A DNA stretch of 43,871 nucleotides, taken from NCBI GenBank assembly GCA_015523335.1, contig WAKM01000034.1:1-43871 (forward strand), in the 5' to 3' direction. Each line of letters begins with the position of its first letter. The stretch's first letter is position 1. The notes under the pieces were generated by a model. It was not told the DNA's origin. It saw only the letters and a list, made by a program, of their open reading frames with translations, and ran no database searches. Shown here piece after piece: positions 14,541-33,949 of the stretch. Both the position numbers and the translations under genes were made by a program. This DNA is from Archaeoglobaceae archaeon. GTDB lineage: Archaea; Halobacteriota; Archaeoglobi; Archaeoglobales; Archaeoglobaceae.

Positions 14541-14598
14541 ATCCTCAGCCGCAGGAAATTTCATCACGAATCAGAGCGACCGAAACTCATCATCGGCG
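14541..14598 (-). ncRNA. Box C/D guide sRNA upstream of the helicase
   Basis: Reading the minus strand 5' to 3': box C ATGATGA (14593-14587), guide GTTTCGGTCGCT (12 bases), box D' CTGA (14574-14571), spacer TTC, box C' GTGATGA (14567-14561), guide AATTTCCTGCGG (12 bases), box D CTGA (14548-14545). This is the compact archaeal dual-guide layout. Such RNAs bind L7Ae, Nop5 and fibrillarin and direct 2'-O-methylation of the target base paired five positions before D or D'. The implied targets read AGCGACCGAAAC and CCGCAGGAAATT, each with an adenosine at the methylated place; I could not place them in an rRNA or tRNA. A TATA-like TTTTTATCG at 14627-14619 is correctly spaced for a 5' end near 14597. 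Confidence 0.82.
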
Positions 14599-15698: not shown

Positions 15699-15772
<74 letters not shown>

Positions 15773-21403: not shown

Positions 21404-21461
21404 GCGGATGATGAAGCCCCCTGAGCTCTGAATCGTGATGAATTAGGGGCTGTCTGACATC
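21404..21461 (+). ncRNA. Box C/D guide sRNA between traB-like and HTH genes
   Basis: Plus strand: box C ATGATGA (21408-21414), guide AGCCCCCTGAGCT (13 bases), box D' CTGA (21428-21431), spacer ATC, box C' GTGATGA (21435-21441), guide ATTAGGGGCTGT (12 bases), box D CTGA (21454-21457). An earlier CTGA at 21421 would leave only six guide bases and is not used. Implied targets are AGCTCAGGGGGCT and ACAGCCCCTAAT, with a cytidine at the methylated place in each. I could not place these; the first resembles a tRNA D-arm motif. The 3' part is antisense to the last codons of the HTH gene. A TATA-like box is well placed upstream. Confidence 0.82.
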
Positions 21462-25513: not shown

Positions 25514-27010
25514 ATGGAAGAAATCCATTGGGCTGACGTAATTGCGGAGGATCTGCTGAAAAAAAGTAAGAAGCACAGAATAGCTACGGGCATAACTCCT
25601 TCCGGACATATCCATCTCGGAAATTTAAGGGAAATGCTTACGGCAGATGCGGTAAGAAGGGCTGTAATCGATAAGGGCGGTGAAGCCGAGCTCATCTACA
25701 TTGCAGACACATTCGATCCGTTGCGAAAAAGATATCCGTTTTTGCCCGAAGAATACGAGAAATACGTCGGAATGCCTTTAAGCGAGATTCCGGATCCGGA
25801 AGGTTGTCATGAGAATTATGCGGATCACTTTCTTGAGCCTTTCTTGGAATCGCTCGAAATCCTCGGGATTCCGGTTAAAGTTGAGAAAGCCGACGAGATG
25901 TATAAGGAGGGAAGATACGAAGAGGCGATAAGAACAGCATTGAAGCGTAGGGACGACATCGCGAGGATAATCGAAGAAGTGACGGGTAGAAAGCTTGAAG
26001 AGGATTGGTATCCCTTCATGCCACTCTGCGAGGAATGCGGAAGGATAAATTCTGCAAAGGTTACGGGATTCGACGAGAAGTGGATCTACTACAGATGTTC
26101 GTGCGGACACGAAGGAAAAGCGAGTTACAGAGGTGGAGGAAAGCTGACTTGGCGCGTCGATTGGGCGGCGAGGTGGAAGATATTGGGAATAACGTGCGAA
26201 CCTTTCGGCAAGGATCATGCCGCGGCTGGCGGAAGCTACGATACCGGCAAGAGATTGGCGAGGGAGATATTCGGAATAGAGCCGCCGTATCCGATTCCAT
26301 ACGAATGGATTAACCTTAAGGGAGTAGGAGCGATGAGCTCATCGAAGGGCATAGTGATTCCGGTAAGGGAATTTTTGGACGTTCTTCCGCCGGAAATCGT
26401 TCGATACATCATAATTAGGGTTAAGCCGAAGAAGCACATCGACTTCGATCCAGCAAATCTGCTCGAGTTGGTCGATGAGTTCGAAGAGGGGATTAAGAAG
26501 AAGGATAGGGCGGTCGAACTCTCTTTGGTTGGGGATGTTGAGTATTCGGATATTCCGTTTAGACACCTCGTCGTTGTCGGGCAGATCGCCGAATGGGATC
26601 TGAGCAAAGTGTTCGAGATACTCGAGAGAACGGGCTACAAGATCGACGAAAAAGCGAGGAGGGATGTGGAGAGGAGAATAAAGTATGCAAAGAACTGGCT
26701 TGAGAAGTTTGCTCCGGAAAGGCTTAAGTTCGAGATAGCCGAAAGCGTCGATCCTTCAACGTTCAGTGAGGATGAGAAGAAGTTCCTCAGAACGTTCGCT
26801 GAGAGGCTCAGCGATGACATGAAGCCCGAAGACATCCACAACCTCGTCTATCAAGTTGCCAACGAGCTCGGTTTGAAGCCAGCAAAGGGATTTCAGGCTA
26901 TCTACAAGGCAATATTGGGCAAAAACTACGGACCGAGAGCCGGCTATTTCATCAAGATGCTCGGAATTGAATGGGTTAAAAATAGATTCATGCAGATTAG
27001 TTGCGAGTAG
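25514..27010 (+). CDS. lysS: Class I lysyl-tRNA synthetase
   Basis: A 498-residue class I LysRS, the archaeal type unrelated to the usual class II enzyme. The HIGH-like motif is HIHLGN in TGITPSGHIHLGNLRE and the KMSKS-like motif is MSSSKG. A zinc site CEEC followed by CSC sits between them. The C-terminus is the helical anticodon-binding cage. A TATA-like cttttaaag (25484-25492) lies about 25 bases before the ATG, so the transcript is probably leaderless. A box C/D sRNA lies just beyond its stop on the same strand. Confidence 0.96.
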   Translation: MEEIHWADVIAEDLLKKSKKHRIATGITPSGHIHLGNLREMLTADAVRRAVIDKGGEAELIYIADTFDPLRKRYPFLPEEYEKYVGMPLSEIPDPEGCHENYADHFLEPFLESLEILGIPVKVEKADEMYKEGRYEEAIRTALKRRDDIARIIEEVTGRKLEEDWYPFMPLCEECGRINSAKVTGFDEKWIYYRCSCGHEGKASYRGGGKLTWRVDWAARWKILGITCEPFGKDHAAAGGSYDTGKRLAREIFGIEPPYPIPYEWINLKGVGAMSSSKGIVIPVREFLDVLPPEIVRYIIIRVKPKKHIDFDPANLLELVDEFEEGIKKKDRAVELSLVGDVEYSDIPFRHLVVVGQIAEWDLSKVFEILERTGYKIDEKARRDVERRIKYAKNWLEKFAPERLKFEIAESVDPSTFSEDEKKFLRTFAERLSDDMKPEDIHNLVYQVANELGLKPAKGFQAIYKAILGKNYGPRAGYFIKMLGIEWVKNRFMQISCE

Positions 27011-27086
27011 TCGGCGGTGTTGAATTTCCTCTTCTTTATTAAGATCGCACAAGCGAAAGGTCTTTTACGGTTCGGCTTCAATTCCA

Positions 27087-27149
27087 TGTAATGATGATTG
27101 AATCCAATTCTGAGCGCATGCGATGATGAAGTAGCCCGCGCCTGAATTC
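27087..27149 (+). ncRNA. Box C/D guide sRNA targeting 16S rRNA (predicted)
   Basis: Plus strand: box C ATGATGA (27091-27097), guide TTGAATCCAATT (12 bases), box D' CTGA (27110-27113), spacer of 8 bases, box C' ATGATGA (27123-27129), guide AGTAGCCCGCGC (12 bases), box D CTGA (27142-27145). The D' guide is the complement of AATTGGATTCAA, the conserved archaeal 16S segment bound by the Arch958R primer; the target base is a G about E. coli 944. The D guide complements CGCGGGCTAC, part of conserved archaeal 16S around E. coli 1225-1240. The gene sits between lysS and a convergent permease gene; no strong TATA box was seen, so it may be processed from the lysS message. Confidence 0.88.
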
Positions 27150-27972
27150 ATTCGATGAAACTCTTCCTTTCCAAAACGTCCCTCAAGCCCTCTCCGAGCA
27201 GGTTGAAGCCGAGAACCGATAGGGCTATGAACAAACCCGGAAAAAAGGTTAGCCAAGGTGCCGTGGTTATGTAATCCTTGCCGGCGTTTATCATCTGCCC
27301 CCATTCCGGCGTTGGAGGCTGAATTCCCAATCCCAAGAATCCCAAGCTTGCGATCGTCATGATGACGTTACCCATGTTCAACGTTGCCAAAACGACTATG
27401 GGCCCTATCGAATTGGGAATTACGTGTCTGAGTAGTATATACCACTCGCCCGCTCCTATAGCTTTGGCACAGAGAACGAACTCTCTTTCCTTCAAAGATA
27501 ACACGATCCCCCTCGTGATCCTCGCGTAGCTAACCCAGTTCGTTATAACAACAGCCAAGATCACGTTCCAAGTTGAAACGCCGTAAGCTGCGCAGAAGAT
27601 CCCGACCAAGGCTATGTTGAACACGAGCTCAGGAATTGCCAAAAACACGTCGATAATTCTTCCAATTACATCATCGACTATCCCTCCGAAATATCCGCTT
27701 ACAGCTCCGATGATGCATCCCAAAGACATTGAGATAAGAGATATCGTGAGGGCTACGAACAACGAAGTCCTCGCGCCCCATAAAACTCTCGAAAACAGAT
27801 CCCTTCCAAGCTGATCCGTCCCGAACGGATGCTTAAGGCTTGGGGGCTCGAGTCTATCCTTCAAGTCGGTTTTGTATGGATTCTTAGCTATCAAAGGTGC
27901 CAGCAGTCCCAAGATGGCAATCAGCAGTATTATTCCCAATCCCGTAACGCAAAGCCTGTTCATTTCAGTCAC
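27148..27972 (-). CDS. Opp/Nik-type ABC transporter permease (DppC-like)
   Basis: A 274-residue membrane permease with about six segments, an N-terminal TM (LGIILLIAILGLLAPLIA), the periplasmic SLKHPFGTDQLGRDLFSRVLWG signature of DppC/OppC/NikC, and the cytoplasmic EAA-like loop (RTIGAGEW region: CAKAIGAGEWYILLRHVIPNS). It overlaps the DppB-like gene by 8 bases. The stop at 27148-27150 lies at the edge of the C/D sRNA. No ATP-binding gene follows. Solute type (peptide, nickel or other) is not set by the sequence; the operon partner with DUF4198-like folds suggests metal. Confidence 0.9.
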   Translation of the reverse strand: MTEMNRLCVTGLGIILLIAILGLLAPLIAKNPYKTDLKDRLEPPSLKHPFGTDQLGRDLFSRVLWGARTSLFVALTISLISMSLGCIIGAVSGYFGGIVDDVIGRIIDVFLAIPELVFNIALVGIFCAAYGVSTWNVILAVVITNWVSYARITRGIVLSLKEREFVLCAKAIGAGEWYILLRHVIPNSIGPIVVLATLNMGNVIMTIASLGFLGLGIQPPTPEWGQMINAGKDYITTAPWLTFFPGLFIALSVLGFNLLGEGLRDVLERKSFIE

Positions 27973-33441: not shown

Positions 33442-33949
33442 GAATTAAAATCGATCCGTCTTCCCCATCGACGATTTCGCCCCATCCTTCGAGGTAAAGC
33501 CTAACGGTTAAAGCCGAGATGATCGCATCGATTACGTTGTGATCCTCGAAATCACGAACATCGACGAATCTTTTCAAGTCCTTAAGAATTTTCGTCCTCT
33601 CCTCTAATTTCTTTTTATTCGCTCTCGGTGCTATGTTTAGTAGAACCCTCGTAGCAAACGGATAAACCTCGTAAACTGTAACACCCTTTCTTCTAAGCCT
33701 ATCGGCTATTTCCATACCCTTCCTTGCAATTCTCTCGACGAACTTCGGCGGAAGTAGTCGGATGCCCATCTTGTGCAGTTTTCTTTCGCACTCCCTGAAG
33801 TATCCCTCTTTCGGAAAACTTAAGGGAGCGTCGATTCCGGCGAACTCGAAATCGATGTCGCAATCTTCGAGCGTTCCGACGTAAACGATTTTCCTTCCGT
33901 CTATAACCGCAACGTGGCAGACCTTGCCGACATCTATACCGGCAATCAT
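33413..33949 (-). CDS. DUF429 family protein
   Basis: A 178-residue protein of the DUF429 family, predicted to have an RNase H-like fold. IAGIDVGKVCHVAVID opens with the first metal-binding Asp, GIDAPLSFPKEGYFRECERKLHKMGIRLLPP is the family core, and DHNVIDAIISALTVRLYLEGWGE gives the last acidic block. Its activity is unproven. The ATG overlaps the HD-domain gene stop (ATGA), so the two are coupled. Confidence 0.8.
   Translation of the reverse strand: MIAGIDVGKVCHVAVIDGRKIVYVGTLEDCDIDFEFAGIDAPLSFPKEGYFRECERKLHKMGIRLLPPKFVERIARKGMEIADRLRRKGVTVYEVYPFATRVLLNIAPRANKKKLEERTKILKDLKRFVDVRDFEDHNVIDAIISALTVRLYLEGWGEIVDGEDGSILIPKPQFRLVQ

Follow-up and report, generated by a model that had tools for sequence, protein, structure and literature searches.

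In archaeal box C/D ribonucleoproteins, L7Ae binds both box pairs, Nop5 serves as a bridge and fibrillarin methylates the target nucleotide that is paired five bases upstream of box D or D' (PMC4644070, PMC5389607). One such RNA, sR46 of Thermococcus kodakarensis, is abundantly expressed and partly circular (PMC9014305); another, sR15 of Nanoarchaeum equitans, is a 16S double guide whose targets are the two strands of h30 and which has been proposed to act as a chaperone (PMC4644070). In Methanopyrus kandleri, sR88 is related to sR39/sR119 by a circular rearrangement in which the D and D' guides have changed places (PMC4644070).

We analyzed a 43,871-nucleotide stretch of DNA (the window) that forms part of contig C34 in a 1.40-Mb archaeal assembly of 60 contigs. 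The host belongs to the Archaeoglobales, as originally supposed. At 27087 to 27149 it carries what we identify, from sequence and comparative data, as a genuine, conserved box C/D sRNA of the textbook archaeal type. Box C, the D' guide (UGAAUCCAAU) and the D' box are identical to those of Pyrococcus/Thermococcus sR46 (RF01130), and the predicted h31 target is therefore the same, whereas the sR46 D guide (ACCCCAGAGUGG in the Rfam consensus) is unrelated to the D guide found here. The best Rfam match of the locus in a whole-window scan was likewise sR46, at 31.8 bits (E 9.5e-4) and thus short of the gathering cut-off of 50; no Rfam family scored at or above its gathering threshold in that scan.

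Anatomy and gene neighborhood

The features of the locus and its surroundings are listed below; the boxes and the spacer were read directly from the sequence.

25514-27010, + strand: lysS, class I lysyl-tRNA synthetase, the upstream neighbor (context, outside the sRNA)
27060-27068, + strand: GGTCTTTTA, a possible TATA-like element lying some 25-30 nt before box C, within the A+T-peak zone of ten relatives (suggestive only)
27087-27149, + strand: box C/D sRNA gene, ends approximate, mature RNA predicted at about 55-63 nt, kept in 10 Archaeoglobales genomes
27091-27097, + strand: box C, AUGAUGA
27098-27109, + strand: D' guide UUGAAUCCAAUU, pairing 12/12 with the organism's own 16S at 934-945 (E. 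coli 958-969); predicted 2'-O-methylation of G938 (E. coli 962) in the h31 stem
27110-27113, + strand: box D', CUGA
27114-27122, + strand: D'-C' spacer GCGCAUGCG
27123-27129, + strand: box C', AUGAUGA
27130-27141, + strand: D guide AGUAGCCCGCGC, whose positions D+2 to D+11 form 10 bp with the organism's own 16S at 1207-1216 (E. coli 1228-1237); G1210 (E. coli G1231), in the 3' strand of h30, is the predicted 2'-O-methylation site
27142-27145, + strand: box D, CUGA
27148-27972, - strand: dppC/oppC-like peptide ABC transporter permease, the downstream convergent neighbor (context, outside the sRNA)

The order that defines the archaeal class, RUGAUGA (C), CUGA (D'), RUGAUGA (C') and CUGA (D), can be followed from 27091 to 27145 as originally predicted, and the C/D' and C'/D intervals hold guides within the 10-12 nt range (both of 12 bases, again as predicted) whose rRNA complementarity spans D+5. 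The predicted spacer of 8 bases holds if C' is counted as GAUGAUGA; with C' taken as RUGAUGA, the spacer is 9 nt. All seven forward-order relatives retain a GC...GC stem that closes the spacer. The terminal C/D stem is, by inspection, weak or absent in the forward-order genes, which counts against the assignment. A regular expression for the full C/D architecture found three places in the window, at 27091 (+), 21408 (+) and 14545-14593 (-), all three being the main C/D matches of Rfam in the window, and found none in 300 first-order Markov simulations of it.

The other two loci are further box C/D sRNAs. The RNA at 14543-14597 (-) is sR1-like (36.2 bits, below the cut-off). With the 23S rRNA of the congener G035, 10 bp are formed by its D' guide GUUUCGGUCGCU (at 229-240) and likewise by its D guide AAUUUCCUGCGG (at 191-202), which makes it a probable 23S double guide. 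The RNA at 21404-21460 (+) is snoPyro_CD-like (33.5 bits, below the cut-off), with 9 bp for the D guide and 8 bp for the D' guide at nearby sites in the same 23S (about 1936 and 1903). The window also holds an ordinary tRNA-Pro (ggg) at 15700-15772 (-), to which Rfam gave a weak tmRNA match because of a shared clan.

The position between lysS and dppC, where the 3' end of the sRNA touches the dppC stop codon, was described correctly for this genome (G000), but the setting recurs only in G037; G036 shares the dppC side and has a different upstream neighbor, and the flanking genes are unrelated in G035, G023, G041/G042, G038, G015 and G017, so that the sRNA is found in at least seven gene contexts. 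This variation led us to reject a regulatory element linked to lysS and dppC. In G036 and G035, upstream identity ends at box C. Over ten genomes, A+T content peaks at -36 to -25 before box C, which suggests that the sRNA gene has its own promoter.

Predicted targets in 16S rRNA

The organism's own 16S gene was located (G000:C43:31960-33468) and both guide complements were sought in it; each was present and was the best site of its guide. The segment AATTGGATTCAA at 934-945 is a 12/12 complement of the D' guide, as anticipated for archaeal 16S, and the next-best site for this guide reaches 6 bp. The 10 bases that the D guide was thought to share with conserved 16S were recovered as 10 contiguous pairs (D+2 to D+11) within ACGCGGGCTACA at 1206-1217; positions D+1 and D+12 are unpaired and 9-bp sites exist at 65 and 429, and both observations count against this target. 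When 2,000 random 12-mers from the window were compared with the same 16S, 9 of them gave 10 or more consecutive pairs spanning D+5, a single one gave 11 and none gave 12.

Alignment of this 16S with E. coli rrsH places the D' target at E. coli 958-969, with 962 as its fifth base, and the D target at 1227-1238, with G1231 as its fifth base. The original prediction erred in putting the D' fifth base near 944; it was right that both sites lie on 16S, but the distance between them in the organism's own 16S is 272 nt rather than 300. Residue 962 pairs with 973 in h31, as C-G in E. coli and as G-C here, and G1231 pairs with U950 in h30, where neighboring pairs covary (A949-U1232 to C-G and U952-A1229 to C-G). 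Despite their separation in sequence, the two targets fall in neighboring helices within the 30S head, at the P site; the helix names (h30 and h31) follow the general 16S structure, in which h31 stacks on h30. The RNA very probably guides 2'-O-methylation at the equivalents of E. coli 962 and 1231.

The 23S rRNA was rejected as a target of both guides, the best runs in the 23S of the congener G035 being 6 and 7 bp. No 23S gene was found in the G000 assembly, probably owing to an assembly gap rather than a real loss. The contig with the 16S gene stops 5 bases past that gene (33468-33473).

Conservation and permutation of the guide pair

A pattern of box C, the h31 guide and a D box matched 10 of the 57 Archaeoglobales genomes. 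A second, independent pattern, in which the h30 guide is flanked by boxes C and D, matched the identical 10 and no more; the two guides thus occur jointly in 10 genomes and singly in none. Because exact guide cores were required and divergent relatives may have been missed, 10 of 57 is a lower bound. Pairing extends through D+5 in all 10 genomes (10-12 bp at h31 and 9-11 bp at h30), with genomes lacking a recovered 16S scored against that of G000. The h30 site is the best for the D guide in nine; the exception, which counts against the assignment, is G042, where another 16S site is better by 1 bp, and no 16S was found in the G042 genome when it was sought for a change compensating its odd D guide.

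Outside the Archaeoglobales, none of the phylum's remaining sampled genomes carried the h31-guide half (393 genomes searched). When 85,000 species were scanned, it turned up in Thermococcus and in other MAGs labeled Thermococci, Methanomicrobia or Methanofastidiosia, with unrelated D guides, and the few bacterial matches lacked the remaining C/D architecture. The Thermococcus MAG copies L025, L039, L042, L043 and L044 are sR46-like and have the same D' guide, with an apparent second guide, only about 9 nt long, ahead of a CUGA. The copies L023, L024, L026, L031, L034 and L038, from MAGs carrying the other labels or that of Thermococci, combine the same D' guide with a different D guide common to them (AACUUAUGA...), and this type, as its sequences indicate, is another conserved guide pair.

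The h31 guide precedes the h30 guide in seven of the Archaeoglobales genomes. The order is reversed, with both guides intact and good boxes, in G015 and G017, which belong to one genus, and in G038, which belongs to the genus of the window; in these permuted copies (loci L051 in G015, L052 in G017 and L058/L006 in G038) the h30 guide takes the D' position and the h31 guide the D position. On an rpoB tree the swap requires at least two changes. G038 had been entertained as a half gene, an idea that was dropped since it carries a complete permuted gene. The 3' end of the G038 RNA, GCCTTA, equals the start of the D'-C' spacer GCCTTAGC in G041 and G042, and we infer that it may reflect a circular form opened within the spacer. 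The constant company of the two guides, through varied contexts and swapped order, points to selection acting on the guide pair.

Proposed mechanism and alternative explanations

G000 encodes fibrillarin with an adjacent Nop5 gene, as well as L7Ae. We infer that the sRNA is expressed and would assemble with L7Ae, Nop5 and fibrillarin into an sRNP, in which the D' guide would direct 2'-O-methylation of the G at E. coli 962 (own 938) in the stem of h31 and the D guide that of G1231 (own 1210) in the 3' strand of h30. Since these helices are neighbors at the P site, a single particle would probably keep h31 and one h30 strand open at the same time and let go after methylation, so that the same sRNP could also act as a local folding chaperone. 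We regard this explanation as a whole as highly likely. The putative folding role finds a precedent in Nanoarchaeum sR15 (PMC4644070) and draws indirect support from the preserved guide pair. Counting against the methylation at h31, the cryo-EM model of the Pyrococcus abyssi 30S subunit lists no 2'-O-methyl G at the 962 equivalent, although Pyrococcus has the same D' guide; that structure may fail to resolve the methyl group.

The shorter pairing of the D guide (10 bp against 12 for D'), its 9-bp alternatives and the combination of this D' guide with different D guides in Thermococcus and in relatives of the Methanofastidiosia type would agree with an RNA in which only the D' guide works on 16S, the D guide being a remnant or addressing own 16S 65 or 429 or a nonribosomal RNA. 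Such a guide would hardly be expected to keep its core in all 10 Archaeoglobales copies, even where it has moved to the D' position, or to have h30 as its best site in nine of them, and several relatives lack positions 65 and 429 among their best sites; we consider this account very unlikely. An RNA that is mainly an assembly chaperone uniting h31 and h30, with the methylations secondary, would match the cohesion of the guide pair across order swaps and contexts and the adjacency of the target helices, and it has a published counterpart in the proposal for Nanoarchaeum sR15 (PMC4644070). What a methylation guide needs, a paired D+5, is nonetheless found at both sites in 10 of 10 genomes, and we judge a predominantly structural role to be rather unlikely.

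The location between convergent genes, with a 3' end at the dppC stop codon, might suggest a chance motif or part of the lysS and dppC 3' ends rather than an RNA gene. The comparative data refute this reading, to which we attach practically no credence: the simulations yielded no such architecture, the same RNA recurs in unrelated contexts and upstream identity in G036 and G035 breaks off right at box C.

The preferred double-guide reading can be extended to the base modifications of the P site. The D' guide duplex covers the equivalents of two base-modified residues of P. abyssi, m1Psi938 and m5C939 (E. coli 966 and 967), and the D guide duplex covers that of a third, m5C1202 (E. coli 1228). 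The D' target runs into UUCAAC, which has been reported as the binding motif of Nep1 in yeast, an organism in which the C/D snoRNA snR57 and Nep1 interact genetically (PMC1829167). By analogy, duplexes over modified residues, together with the link between Nep1 and snR57, make a role in the order of modification conceivable. More boldly, the guide pair could be the selected unit, a permutable sRNA that clamps together h31 and the h30 3' strand while the 30S head assembles and, by covering the equivalents of 966, 967 and 1228, sets the order of P-site base modification, its gene being re-established at new places in circularly permuted form, perhaps via circular sRNA; we put this forward as a doubtful conjecture. 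The Archaeoglobales family, with two guides on one RNA across four genera, at many gene places and in both orders, provides comparative evidence that the joint presence of the guides matters beyond each methylation alone. Its permutable pair renders the chaperone hypothesis testable, and the coverage by both duplexes of residues modified in a relative poses a concrete question about modification order.

Comparison with known guide RNAs

The sRNA resembles sR15 in being a 16S double guide whose sites are some 270-290 nt apart yet close in the folded rRNA. The D target of sR15, G1217/1218 in the alignment of the published account, corresponds by offset to about E. coli 1230-1231 and is thus the same nucleotide as here or its neighbor. 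The D' targets differ: that of sR15 (G930 in the published numbering, sR15 being compared by description) lies on the 5' strand of h30, whereas the D' guide here addresses h31 at E. coli 962, so that the two guides are not on opposite h30 strands but on the 3' strand of h30 (1228-1237) and on h31 (958-969). Strict orthology with either sR46 or sR15 is rejected, since one guide differs in each case. The M. kandleri swap involves a duplicate with one decayed guide within a single genome, whereas here both guides are intact and the swap lies between species.

In the openly readable literature, we found no earlier description of this two-guide combination. By its sequence, the sRNA has a D' guide of the sR46 type and a D target of the sR15 type, which the Archaeoglobaceae keep as a permutable unit. 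The D' site and the idea of chaperoning at helix 30 are already known; what this family adds is the conserved, permutable guide pair.
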